Source: a virus
Strand: one strand, 5' to 3'
Virus record (IMG/VR): IMGVR_UViG_3300025809_000059
Location: 1-34,809 of that record
DNA: 34,809 nt
The notes beneath the pieces were generated by a model. That model was given only the letters and a program-made list of their open reading frames with translations. It ran no database searches and was not told where the DNA came from. Position numbers and translations under genes: made by a program. Below are positions 3,649-9,566 of this stretch, piece by piece. Each line of letters starts with the position of its first letter. Within the stretch, counting starts at the first letter, position 1.

Positions 3649-4230
3649 ATGGCAAAGAAAACAACAACAAAAGTAGAAGACCTTACCTTTCATGGTAGAG
3701 TCGTAGCTATTCAGAATGAATTAAAAGCTCCTAAGAGCCAATATAATTCTTTTGGTAAATATAGTTACAGAAATCAAGAAGACATCTTAGAAGCCGTTAA
3801 ACCGCTTTTAAACAAGTATGGTTTATCATTAACTATTACAGATGAGATTAAAGAAGTAGGTGGATTAGTTTTTGTAGAAGCAAGAGCTATATTACATGCA
3901 CCCGATGGAAGTGTAGAAGCTAAAGCACAAGCAGGTATTGATCCTAACAGAAAGGGAATGGATATAGCCCAATCTTTCGGAAGTAGCTCTTCTTATGCTC
4001 GGAAGTACTGTCTCAACGGCATTTTTCTTATAGATGACACGCGAGATAGTGATGCGACAAACGATCATGGAAAAGGTCCTGCAACTACATTAGTTAAGAA
4101 GCCTTGGTTAAATGAAGGAACTCCTGAGTTTGCTAAAGCACAAACGTATGTAAAAGCAGGTAATAGTGTCGCAGACATTAAAAAGAAATACAGTATATCA
4201 AAAGCAGTTGAAGCTAAATTATTAGCATAA
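3649..4230 (+). CDS. erf: ERF-family single-strand annealing protein
   Basis: This 193-residue recombinase belongs to the ERF superfamily, which anneals complementary single strands during phage recombination and replication. Supporting motifs are the helical start with 'GRVVAIQNELKAPKSQYNSF' (16-35), YSYRNQEDILEAVKPLL (39-55), and the typical DIAQSFGSSSSYARKYCLNGIF (105-126, here read as the 'q.iGsa.tYarRyal...l' box). An acidic LIDDTRDSDAT stretch follows. The C-terminal 40 residues (GTPEFAKA...) form the small helical module often attached to ERF proteins. It is followed directly by the SSB-like gene, the usual partner. Confidence 0.9.
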   Translation: MAKKTTTKVEDLTFHGRVVAIQNELKAPKSQYNSFGKYSYRNQEDILEAVKPLLNKYGLSLTITDEIKEVGGLVFVEARAILHAPDGSVEAKAQAGIDPNRKGMDIAQSFGSSSSYARKYCLNGIFLIDDTRDSDATNDHGKGPATTLVKKPWLNEGTPEFAKAQTYVKAGNSVADIKKKYSISKAVEAKLLA

Positions 4231-4682: not shown

Positions 4683-5531
4683 ATGAGCAATGAATATACT
4701 GAGAAAGATTATAAGTTATTTGAAGAGATTGATAAAAATGGTAAAGTTAACCCCTTTGAAAAGGTAGAGCATCCACCTGTAGCTATATCAATGGGCGAGA
4801 CAATGATGGGTGGAAAAACATATCCTATACCACTTGGAACTTATGGTAACTTCAGTTTCGTGTATGGACCTCCTAAAACTCGTAAGACCTTTTTAATATC
4901 TTTAATGAGTAGTGTTTACTTGAATGATCAGGTTTCTTTTGGAGGTAAGATGAGAGGGCATAGAGAGGGAAGGGGGTTGTTACATGTAGATACAGAGCAG
5001 GGAAAATTCCATGCCTCTAAAGTGTTTAGAAGACCATTTGATATATCAGGTAGGGATAGTTTTGATAACTACCATACCTTTGCTCTAAGACAATATAGCT
5101 ATAAAGAGAGGTTAGCTTTTATAGATTATTATTTATATAATAAAGTAGAAAATTTAGGAGTGTTAATTTTAGATGGAATTGCAGATTTATGTTCTGATGT
5201 GAACAATATAGAAGAATCATCTTCAGTTGTTCAGTACCTAATGAAATGGACACAAGAATTAAACATACACATTATTACAGTTATTCATAGTAACTTTGGT
5301 AGCGACAAACCCACAGGACACCTTGGATCCTTCCTCGAGAAGAAGACCGAGTGTCAGATATTGTTAGAGGCAAACACAAAGCATGAGAATATGGTAACTG
5401 TTATGTGTAAAAGAAGTAGAAGCTTCCCATTTGAGAAGTTTTCTTTTAGTGTTAATGAGCATGGTCTTCCGCAGGTAGTAGGAGATCTTTACGACCCTTT
5501 AGAGGGAATGAATGTGGTTAAAGTAGTATAA
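4683..5531 (+). CDS. RecA-like AAA ATPase (RepA/DnaB-type, AAA_25)
   Basis: This is a 282-residue ATPase with a RecA-like core. The P-loop is GPPKTRKT (62-69), where the usual Gly before Lys is Arg, a variant I associate with Bacteroidota mobile-element ATPases. HVDTEQ (101-106) is the first catalytic strand, Walker B is VLILDGIADL (160-169), and TVIHSN (199-204) is the sensor strand. GHLGSFLEKK (212-221) follows, as in RepA/AAA_25 proteins. It probably acts as replicative helicase, helicase loader or recombination motor in the operon with ERF, SSB and the DUF1064 nuclease. The next gene starts three bases after its stop. Confidence 0.78.
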   Translation: MSNEYTEKDYKLFEEIDKNGKVNPFEKVEHPPVAISMGETMMGGKTYPIPLGTYGNFSFVYGPPKTRKTFLISLMSSVYLNDQVSFGGKMRGHREGRGLLHVDTEQGKFHASKVFRRPFDISGRDSFDNYHTFALRQYSYKERLAFIDYYLYNKVENLGVLILDGIADLCSDVNNIEESSSVVQYLMKWTQELNIHIITVIHSNFGSDKPTGHLGSFLEKKTECQILLEANTKHENMVTVMCKRSRSFPFEKFSFSVNEHGLPQVVGDLYDPLEGMNVVKVV

Positions 5532-5534
5532 TAT

Positions 5535-5984
5535 ATGAGAAGAGGTAAAAGTAAGAAGAGAGGTCCTGTACAATCTAAGAAGATAACTTACGATGGAATT
5601 ACTTTTGCTTCAGGTCTTGAGCGGTATATGTATATGGCTCTAAAAAAGGCTAAAATAAAAGCTGAATATGAAGGAGAACAATTTGTCCTTGTGCAGGGTT
5701 TTGAATTAGCAAATGAATCCTATGAGAGACAATCTAATGGGAAAGGGGAGTATAGAAATAGAGGGTCTAAGAAAGTCCTACCTATTAAGTACACCCCTGA
5801 CTTTATTGGGGATGGTTTTATTATAGAAACCAAGGGTAGGGCTAATGAGAGCTTTCCAATGAGATGGAAGCTATTTAAGAAGCTTATATCTGAGAAATAC
5901 CCTAACTATACTCTATATAAGCCACAGAATCAATCTGAGTGCGATAAGACTATAGAATTGATAAAAACCACCAAACAAAAATAA
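5535..5984 (+). CDS. DUF1064 PD-(D/E)XK nuclease
   Basis: This 149-residue protein has the DUF1064 signature. It contains the segment GITFASGLERYMYMAL (21-36) with Glu29, YTPDF (86-90) with Asp89, and IIETKG (96-101) with Glu98 and Lys100, followed by FPMRWKLFKKL. These correspond to the PD-(D/E)XK active site of a T7-endonuclease-I-like fold. The N-terminus is very basic (Arg/Lys-rich), consistent with DNA binding. It is likely a structure-specific endonuclease resolving replication or recombination intermediates before packaging. Confidence 0.82.
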   Translation: MRRGKSKKRGPVQSKKITYDGITFASGLERYMYMALKKAKIKAEYEGEQFVLVQGFELANESYERQSNGKGEYRNRGSKKVLPIKYTPDFIGDGFIIETKGRANESFPMRWKLFKKLISEKYPNYTLYKPQNQSECDKTIELIKTTKQK

Positions 5985-6156: not shown

Positions 6157-6720
6157 ATGTTAGAACTATTAGCTAAAGAACACTTGTTGTGGCTGAAGAT
6201 GGTTATAAACATGGGTTGCTCTAAAGATGTTGCGGAGGATATTGTGCAAGAAATGTACATTAAACTGCATAGACTTATATCTGATGAGAATAAAATAATG
6301 TACAATGATGAAGAGGTTAATAGGTTTTATGTATTTGTAACACTTAAAAACCTTTACATAGATTACAGGAAAGCTAAAAATAAATATACTTTCTTTGAGT
6401 ATATAGAGACTGACAAGGAAGATGATGAAGATGAGATGTTTATTAACGACATGACAGACCTCGAAAAGGATCAGGCTTTCACTAAGTTAATGAGTAGTAT
6501 TACAGAAGAGATAAACTCTTGGCACTTGTACGATGCTAAGTTGTGCAACACATACTACAAATCTAATCTATCTTTGAGAGATATAGCTACAGGAAGTAAG
6601 ATCAGCTTAACCTCTATCTTTAACTCTGTGAAGAATTATAAGAAAATACTAAAGGACAAGTTTGAAGAAGATGTCCTTGACTTTTATAACGGAGACTATC
6701 ATTTAATAAATAAAAACTAA
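6157..6720 (+). CDS. Sigma-70-family (ECF-like) sigma factor
   Basis: This 187-residue protein resembles small phage sigma factors. Region 2 spans about residues 21-72: CSKDVAEDIVQEMYIKLHRL is the core-binding helix and FYVFVTLKNLYIDYRK the -10 recognition helix. A Glu/Asp-rich linker (85-100) follows. A region-4-like helix-turn-helix occupies about 138-165 (LSLRDIATGSKISLTSIFNSV). It could redirect host RNA polymerase to later phage promoters. The structural operons lack clear TTG/TAnnTTTG promoters, which fits, but its target sequence cannot be derived from this window. It is co-transcribed with the replication genes. Confidence 0.72.
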   Translation: MLELLAKEHLLWLKMVINMGCSKDVAEDIVQEMYIKLHRLISDENKIMYNDEEVNRFYVFVTLKNLYIDYRKAKNKYTFFEYIETDKEDDEDEMFINDMTDLEKDQAFTKLMSSITEEINSWHLYDAKLCNTYYKSNLSLRDIATGSKISLTSIFNSVKNYKKILKDKFEEDVLDFYNGDYHLINKN

Positions 6721-6722
6721 TC

Positions 6723-7145
6723 ATGGAAGAATTTAAAGGAGACAAAAGAACCAAAGCCTACAGAGAGTGGAAGGCTAAGTTTGAAGCTAAACAATCAGAA
6801 GAGTCTAAAGGACTTGGAGATACTGTAGAGAAGATCACAGAAGCTACAGGAATTAAGAAGGCTGTTAAGTTTATTGCAGGTGAAGACTGTGGGTGCGATG
6901 CTCGCAAGGAAAAGCTAAATAAATTATTCAGATATAAGCAACCTGAGTGTTTGACAGAAGAGGAGTACAATTACCTTGATGAAGTATTTAAAGTAGGTGA
7001 TACTACCATACCTTCTGCTCAACAAATGAAAATGAATAAGATATACAATAGAGTGTTCCATCAAAACAAAAAGACTACCTCTTGCGGCAGATGCTTTATG
7101 TCTACCTACAATGAGTTAAAAACTTTGATGAACGAATACAAGTAG
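6723..7145 (+). CDS. Hypothetical cysteine-motif phage protein
   Basis: This is a 140-residue protein with a basic N-terminal helix. A segment 'ATGIKKAVKFIAGEDCGCDARK' (41-62) has Cys56 and Cys58, and a later pair lies in SCGRC (Cys121 and Cys124); Cys76 lies between. The four paired cysteines could bind zinc. I recognise the GEDCGCDxRK motif as recurrent in phages of Bacteroidota and relatives, but no function is known. It starts two bases after the sigma-like gene and ends directly at the next ATG. Confidence 0.65.
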   Translation: MEEFKGDKRTKAYREWKAKFEAKQSEESKGLGDTVEKITEATGIKKAVKFIAGEDCGCDARKEKLNKLFRYKQPECLTEEEYNYLDEVFKVGDTTIPSAQQMKMNKIYNRVFHQNKKTTSCGRCFMSTYNELKTLMNEYK

Positions 7146-7796
7146 ATGGAGTTATTTGAATCAAATATACCTAAAACACTTTATTCTAAGCTAAATAAAG
7201 ATTCTAAGCTATCAAGGAAGTTTAGATCATCAAATGTAGGTAAATGCACTCAGATATATGATAACTACTATCATAGTGTTGAAGGAAATGTTAACAAGGA
7301 TGATTGGAGTAAGTTTTACTTAAAAACTATACATAAGAGCGTTCTTGAAGACATAGCTAATTATATAATTGAGGAGTATGATTGCTCCGAGGCTTATGCT
7401 AAGAACTATGTTTACTTTAGAGTTGTAGGTCAAACTTGGAATGGCATGGCTAAGGAGCAGCATTTGATTGGTATATTAAGTAGGGAGTTCTTAAACGCAG
7501 ACTTTGTTAAGACAAACTACGAATTAGATGAACAGTACTTTACAGATTGGGAGGCTTATTCTTTTGGTCAGTTATTATTTGGAATACAGATCAAGCCAAT
7601 AAGTTATAAGAAGATGAATAGTTCTTATCAGATGCAGGCTAAGGAGAATCATCAAAAGCAGGCAGAAGCTTATAGAGAGAAGTATAGTGTACCTCACATA
7701 ATAATTTACTACGATGGAGATGAATTTTATGATAAAGATTATGTTTTTAATCAAATAAACACTATGTTAGCAATGAAAATTAATATTATATTTTAA
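7146..7796 (+). CDS. MjaI-like restriction endonuclease (PD-(D/E)XK), no methyltransferase partner
   Basis: This 216-residue protein resembles the MjaI restriction endonuclease family (Pfam RE_MjaI), whose archetype recognises CTAG. The pattern seen is VVGQTWNGMAKEQHLIGIL (93-111) with Glu104, TDWEAY (133-138) with Asp134, then GIQIKPISYKK (146-156) with Gln148 and Lys150 as the (E/Q)xK of a PD-(D/E)XK site. PHIIIYYDGDE (183-193) matches the family's closing strand. A Gln/Lys/Glu-rich helix lies between. No DNA methyltransferase gene exists anywhere in the genome. By eye I find no CTAG in the whole window, which would protect the phage from its own enzyme. Family assignment is from motif memory, without a search; another PD-(D/E)XK nuclease is the main alternative. 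Confidence 0.55.
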   Translation: MELFESNIPKTLYSKLNKDSKLSRKFRSSNVGKCTQIYDNYYHSVEGNVNKDDWSKFYLKTIHKSVLEDIANYIIEEYDCSEAYAKNYVYFRVVGQTWNGMAKEQHLIGILSREFLNADFVKTNYELDEQYFTDWEAYSFGQLLFGIQIKPISYKKMNSSYQMQAKENHQKQAEAYREKYSVPHIIIYYDGDEFYDKDYVFNQINTMLAMKINIIF

Positions 7797-7799
7797 ACT

Positions 7800-8165
7800 A
7801 TGGAAGAAACAAAGACAAATCCTGTACAGTTAGCTTACTTAAAGTCGATGCTTATAGGTCAACTATGGTTGGAGGCGAATGACAAACTTATTCTAACTAC
7901 CACCTACAGACAGAACATTAAACAAATGTATAACAGACTTAACAACTCGTTAGAGTCTACCATAAAGCAGGGTTATGATGAGATCTACTCTACAGATCCT
8001 GAGATGGTAACAAACATCTTAAACTCTATAGAGTCTTTGATTGATAAGATCAAGGGAGGTAATATAGATGAGCTTGTTATGATGAACGCAGTAATAGATA
8101 AGTATAATGAAAACAAAGAGTGGTTTGCAGAGCATGCAGCCGCTGAATTTTTAAGAATAGATTAA
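7800..8165 (+). CDS. Hypothetical helical protein, 121 residues
   Basis: This is an all-helical, soluble protein with no recognised domain. It starts three bases after the endonuclease stop, so it is co-expressed with it. It might be a partner or inhibitor of the nuclease, but that is only positional inference. The C-terminus has an Ala-rich helix ending EFLRID. Confidence 0.6.
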   Translation: MEETKTNPVQLAYLKSMLIGQLWLEANDKLILTTTYRQNIKQMYNRLNNSLESTIKQGYDEIYSTDPEMVTNILNSIESLIDKIKGGNIDELVMMNAVIDKYNENKEWFAEHAAAEFLRID

Positions 8166-8795: not shown

Positions 8796-9566
8796 ATGAT
8801 TACATTATTAAACGGAGAACAATGGCAGGAGAAGGACATCTTAAAAGAGATGTTACATGATCCATTTTATTATGGACACTTAGGTAAGCATGCACTAAGT
8901 AGCTCTGCCTTGAAGAAACTAATTGAGAGTCCTAAAGCTTATGAGAAGTCTTTAAGATTTAATAGTAATGCCCAACCACTTAGGGATGGTAGGTTAATAC
9001 ATCTAAGCGTGTTAGAGAAGCATAGATTGAGTGAACTTACTATAATAGATGGCACTAAGGCAACTAAAGGATTTAAGGAAGCGGTAAAGGAGTTTGGAGC
9101 TGAGTCAGTTTATACTAAGTCTGAGATGGACAATGCTTATTGGATAACTAAGGCTGTTGAGGATTGCGATTCTGCTTCTGAGTTATTAGATGGTTGCACC
9201 TTTGAAGAACCTGCAGTTAAAATGATAGATGGTATTGCTATTAGAGGAAAGGCAGATGCGAGGAAGGGATCTACAATTATTGATCTGAAAACAACAAATG
9301 ACCTTTCTAAATTTAAGTGGAGTACAAAGCATTTTTCTTATGACCTTCAAGCGGCATTGTACTTAGAATTGTTTGATGCTACTGAATTTATATTTCTTGT
9401 AGTAGATAAGGACACAAAAGATATTGGTATATTTGAATGTAGTTCAGACTTTATTCAGAGAGGCTATGATAAGATAGAAAGAGGTATATACAACTATAAG
9501 TATTTCTTCTTAGAGAATAACCCTAAAGACTCAGTTAGAAATTATGTTACACATGATGTCCTTTAA
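8796..9566 (+). CDS. RecE/DUF3799-like PD-(D/E)XK exonuclease
   Basis: This 256-residue nuclease of the RecE/Cas4-like superfamily would degrade one strand at DNA ends to feed the ERF annealing protein. The motifs are LSSSALKKL (34-42), GRLIHLSVLE (65-74) with His69, FEEPAV (136-141), GKADAR (151-156) with Asp154, and IIDLKTT (161-167) with Asp163 and Lys165, followed by YDLQAALYLE (182-191), the QxxxY motif. All catalytic residues are present. It is separated from ERF by about 4.6 kb and one terminator, so the two are in different operons. Confidence 0.87.
   Translation: MITLLNGEQWQEKDILKEMLHDPFYYGHLGKHALSSSALKKLIESPKAYEKSLRFNSNAQPLRDGRLIHLSVLEKHRLSELTIIDGTKATKGFKEAVKEFGAESVYTKSEMDNAYWITKAVEDCDSASELLDGCTFEEPAVKMIDGIAIRGKADARKGSTIIDLKTTNDLSKFKWSTKHFSYDLQAALYLELFDATEFIFLVVDKDTKDIGIFECSSDFIQRGYDKIERGIYNYKYFFLENNPKDSVRNYVTHDVL

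Follow-up and report, generated by a model that had tools for sequence, protein, structure and literature searches.

Restriction endonucleases that lack a companion methylase are usually taken to be broken or toxic. T4 endonuclease II and similar enzymes are early phage nucleases that degrade unprotected host DNA, and T4 shields its own DNA through modified cytosine, not through an absence of sites. The enzyme PacI recognises a site of 8 bp. In Pseudomonas alcaligenes, it is a solitary endonuclease without a methylase, and the genome is devoid of its sites (PMC3488263). The intron endonuclease gp210 of phage PhiPA3, a homing nickase whose action is limited to a single homologous locus, competes against PhiKZ (PMC11620839). 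MjaI of Methanocaldococcus jannaschii (Pfam family RE_MjaI, PF09568) has been cloned and assayed (PMC4752239), and M.MjaI clusters among the CTAG N4-cytosine methyltransferases (PMC5867850). Literature searches of partial coverage returned no report of a solitary phage restriction enzyme combined with site avoidance.

The stretch analysed here (the window) is a 34,809-nt IMG/VR record of a virus of bacteria and is possibly not a complete genome. On its plus strand, positions 7146–7796 encode a 216-aa protein which is read, with a probability of roughly 80%, as an active MjaI-family endonuclease, type II-like and methylase-free, that has CTAG as its cleavage site (here probably CTGG/CCAG too), is tolerated through site avoidance and occupies a slot in which related phages swap enzymes. 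Its profile homology to MjaI covers most of the domain, and the forbidden core word, CTAG, is the same. However, MjaI belongs to a restriction-modification system with M.MjaI, whereas the phage enzyme has no methyltransferase, lies in an early operon and probably has a wider target. Like PacI, it would be a methylase-less restriction enzyme tolerated by a site-free genome, an immunity for which PacI is the bacterial precedent, but PacI is a different nuclease with a long, rare site, while the phage has removed a 4-bp word expected about 100 times. With gp210 it would share the cutting of a co-infecting relative while sparing its own genome, although gp210 is a homing nickase tied to one locus and the phage enzyme would be a frequent cutter whose sites are avoided throughout the genome. 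The parallel with T4 endonuclease II is that of an early phage nuclease presumably aimed at unprotected host DNA; the folds differ, and missing sites take the place of modified cytosine.

The assignment to the MjaI family rests on profiles, an alignment and a structural model. The copy in the window scores 21.2 bits against RE_MjaI, slightly below the Pfam cut-off of 22.7, but 13 of 25 homologous viral contigs exceed this threshold (best 36.2), among them L008 (29.8), which is 50% identical to the window copy. The profile is matched by 17 of 28 aligned homologs (best E-value 5.8e-9) and, among the control genomes, by M. jannaschii alone; the PADLOC REase_II profile also matches the window protein (E-value 7e-6). 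The candidate catalytic residues Glu104, Asp134, Gln148 and Lys150 are invariant across the 28 homologs, the other members being 40–88% identical to the window copy. An AlphaFold model built from this alignment is confident (pLDDT 94.5, pTM 0.87) and places these residues within a PD-(D/E)XK region, the alpha/beta core of which begins at about residue 100. Foldseek alone gave weak matches and PDB sequence searches no credible one. The structural matches of the model are all PD-(D/E)XK nucleases, namely archaeal Hjc (Z 8.4, 99 residues aligned), BsaWI (Z 7.6, 104 aligned), Vsr (Z 7.4, 122 aligned) and Bse634I (Z 5.3); a Z near 8 reflects the common core only. Profiles and predicted fold together confirm the protein as a PD-(D/E)XK nuclease homologous to RE_MjaI. 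The earlier note, which had proposed this kinship and active site from the letters alone and suggested the profile search and the model comparison as checks, is thus borne out on both counts. As for the distribution of the family, tblastn with the window protein and with the L146 homolog found no match among 50,697 GenBank phage records. A scan of bacterial and archaeal genomes yielded one weak homolog at a contig edge (L160); as a single scan with two short peptide patterns, it cannot demonstrate that the family is specific to phages.

The gene is free-standing within a conserved slot, and in the open reading frame map its ATG begins at the base directly after the stop codon of the preceding gene. 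That gene (6723–7145, plus strand), encoding a Cys-rich protein of 140 aa, and a 121-aa gene downstream (7800–8165, plus) form the left and right borders of the slot, as seen by comparison with relatives. The surrounding plus-strand genes are in keeping with the early operon proposed by the earlier note. They encode an ERF single-strand annealing protein (3649–4230; Pfam ERF, E-value 2e-34), an AAA_25 ATPase (4683–5531), a DUF1064/T7 endonuclease I-like nuclease that is probably a resolvase (5535–5984), a sigma-like factor with a helix-turn-helix (6157–6720; UPF0122, below threshold), which also serves as phylogenetic marker, and a PD-(D/E)XK exonuclease of the DUF3799 family (8796–9566). The position of the resolvase-like gene is itself exchangeable, with RusA-like or NinG-like genes in relatives (L025:4552–4983, L014:3655–4080).

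Within the 34.8-kb record, which may be incomplete, no gene matches the N6/N4 (PF01555), C5 (PF00145) or D12 (PF02086) methyltransferase families, so that the cognate methyltransferase expected of a type II restriction-modification system is missing from it, as the earlier note had stated. The absence of CTAG, claimed there too, also holds: the whole record (1–34,809) contains no CTAG, against 84.6 ± 7.3 expected from synonymous-codon shuffles of the coding sequence. By the same shuffles, CTGG (69.3 expected), CCAG (49.4) and CCGG (11.0) are likewise at zero, while CATG (82 observed, 67.6 expected) and AGCT show no depletion. Of the 101 tryptophan codons, not one is preceded by C. Together with the synonymous shuffles, this indicates a purge that targets the DNA word itself and extends beyond CTAG, and the missing words presumably confer passive immunity. 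GGCC is absent as well (17–31 expected, or 13.3 in synonymous shuffles), and there is a single GCGC and a single CGCG, against 14–17 and 5–6 expected; no gene in the window accounts for the absence of GGCC or the rarity of GCGC and CGCG.

Many bacteria have fewer CTAG sites than expected (PMC4687349). A first control set of terminase relatives contained many phages without the gene in which CTAG is zero too, so that the absence of CTAG from one genome is weak evidence, and its plain absence was dropped as proof. Among the same terminase relatives, CTGG and CCAG are both zero only in two groups: the gene-bearing clade, of which L012 and L015 are fragments that do not reach the slot, and distant phages that carry the gene. 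For a wider survey, which the earlier note had recommended, 80 gene-bearing loci were collected by protein similarity, not by composition; many loci are fragments, expected counts outside the window follow a first-order Markov model, and absence of the gene is called from coverage of the slot. The 80 loci together contain a single CTAG. In the 77 non-redundant ones, this amounts to 1 against about 2839 expected (2 against 5678 on both strands), the lowest observed/expected ratio of all tetranucleotides in an unbiased scan; in the remaining loci, where the gene is absent or its state unknown, the ratio is 0.24. CTAG is thus zero in 76 of the 77 loci, and the exception, L157, has a premature internal stop in its copy of the gene. 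Ten contigs of 19–31 kb contain no CTAG where 828 are expected. When 124 gene families were compared with 12 words, the MjaI-type gene and CTAG gave the strongest strict association.

Shared ancestry was taken into account with a tree built on the adjacent sigma-like factor, comprising 146 loci with gene state known from slot coverage; on it, the MjaI-type gene switches between presence and absence a minimum of 22 times. CTAG is zero in all 68 gene-bearing loci of this set; among the 73 lacking the gene, it is present in 50 and zero in 23. In independent pairs, CTAG changes in the same way as the gene in 5.1 of 9 and the opposite way in none (median p 0.0625), which by itself is a marginal sign test. 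For CTGG/CCAG, the corresponding values are 6.6 of 11 and 0.1 (median p 0.016). The control words give 1.6 same and 1.6 opposite for GATC, 0.7 and 2.2 for CATG, and 1.2 and 0.2 for GGCC. Loss of CTAG and of CTGG/CCAG therefore tracks the gene on the tree, and loss of CATG, GATC and GGCC does not. Of the CTAG-free one-gene system suggested by the earlier note, the association between gene and word stands across relatives; the argument from zero CTAG in one genome is weak by itself, as about a third of the gene-lacking relatives are also at zero. Some of these (L163, L165, L172, L179, L191, L192, L249 and L250) lack CTGG/CCAG too, so the gene is not the sole cause of word loss. Such relatives may reflect recent swaps or exposure to the enzyme during co-infection.

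That the 216-aa protein would cleave CTAG is suggested by the genomic trace, CTAG being the most depleted tetranucleotide in carriers. To this extent the target named at the outset is upheld, but the site is probably wider: all members except L157 avoid CTAG, and most, including the clade of the window, also lack CTGG/CCAG; of the 74 eligible loci with the gene, 61 have neither word. CCGG can be present in carriers (L123, L157, L158), and the absence of CTGG/CCAG while CCGG can occur fits CTRG read in either orientation. In some carriers (the L027 clade, L102, L105, L108, L152 and L153), CTGG/CCAG are normal or half-depleted. Within the half-depleted group (L100, L102, L105, L108, L152 and L243), GCTGG stands at 0/48, CCTGG at 1/45 and TCTGG at 96/98; this avoidance of SCTGG with TCTGG retained suggests that the site in that clade is longer or less strict. 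In L133, a gene-bearing and otherwise CTGG-free locus, all five CTGG/CCAG sites cluster within 1.4 kb (983–2388), as if recently acquired.

In relatives, the slot lies between a Cys-rich gene of 122–145 aa and a gene of 116–121 aa and is occupied by other small nucleases, none of which is recognised by Pfam or PADLOC. The commonest is a 133-aa PD-(D/E)XK family with a D-ExK motif, unrelated to the MjaI-type gene (L163:6445–6846, L025:5955–6359, L263, L250:4409–4819 and relatives). All 71 loci that retain its D, E and K are free of CATG. The catalytic motif is lost in 11 loci, all with the MjaI-type gene, and 7 of these contain CATG, with L115 and L144 at normal density. CTAG is present in 34 of the 56 loci that carry an intact 133-aa gene without the MjaI-type gene. 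On the tree, 2.9 of 13 pairs link this nuclease to CATG and none runs opposite, a weaker link, since many other relatives are devoid of CATG as well. By its pattern of missing words, the 133-aa family is likely a new family of CATG-specific solitary endonucleases. A VRR-like nuclease of 131–135 aa also occurs in the slot (L032:5968–6375, L083:6551–6955, L087:6955–7359, L089:5115–5519, L250:4822–5217); none of the five loci has any GATC, and three contain CTAG and CATG, but these loci are few and related, so the link is a lead only. A further nuclease-like family of 114–124 aa (IEVK...E.SRGKPSG; L235:12236–12610 and its family) has 14 carriers, with 4 GATC against 341 expected.

Host restriction of CTAG/CTGG could have stripped the sites from all phages of a host group, with the phage gene merely tracking that group. 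GATC, GGCC and CATG are also missing in many of these phages, and CTAG, CTGG and CCAG are all absent from some close relatives that do not carry the gene, as this explanation would have it. It is nevertheless unlikely in view of the repeated changes of gene state on the tree, which word loss follows and the control words do not. Moreover, the strongest depletion falls on the word already known from the MjaI enzyme family, and the presence of CATG coincides with loss of the catalytic motif in the 133-aa nuclease. Host restriction may still add to the pattern, and it probably explains the other missing words.

The structural matches raise two further possibilities. Archaeal Hjc has the top score, the nuclease adjoins the ERF and resolvase genes, and its slot accepts other nucleases, all of which would suit a structure-specific, Hjc- or resolvase-like enzyme of recombination or replication, unrelated to site loss. 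The likeness, however, extends to the common PD-(D/E)XK core only, a separate resolvase-like gene already lies at 5535–5984, and the association with CTAG and CTGG/CCAG would be left unexplained, making this role quite improbable. Alternatively, the match to Vsr could point to mismatch nicking that mutates CTAG to CCAG, and very short patch repair is among the published causes of a shortage of CTAG (PMC4687349). Such a mutational cause predicts enrichment of CCAG/CTGG at the expense of CTAG and is contradicted by the zero counts of both words in the window and in most eligible gene-bearing loci; it is the least probable of the three by some distance.

Under the favoured reading, that of a methylase-free MjaI-family endonuclease, the enzyme would be made early, together with the recombination and replication genes, and selection would strip its target word from the entire phage genome, so that no methyltransferase is needed. 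Its own genome being site-free, the enzyme would cut only other DNA, such as the host chromosome, co-infecting phages or plasmids, and its purpose would be an attack on host or rival virus DNA, by host degradation or rival exclusion. Through the slot, relatives would exchange enzymes of differing specificity, each with its own missing word, CTAG for the MjaI type and CATG for the 133-aa family. A broader proposal is given only slightly better than even odds: that widespread environmental phages swap methylase-free 4-bp enzymes in one weapon slot (MjaI-type for CTAG or CTRG, 133-aa PD-(D/E)XK for CATG, perhaps VRR-like and 124-aa types for GATC), each word being purged genome-wide, for use against host or rival DNA, and that enzyme-lacking relatives lose the word through co-infection.

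If this is correct, the antidote to a phage's own restriction enzyme would lie in a word missing from its whole genome, and the missing words of a phage would disclose the specificity of its own nucleases. New restriction enzymes could then be discovered and assigned by computation alone, even in families present in no library, such as the 133-aa family. It would also offer an alternative to host restriction as the reason for missing palindromes in phage genomes, and phage–phage competition by frequent-cutting enzymes would become directly testable.
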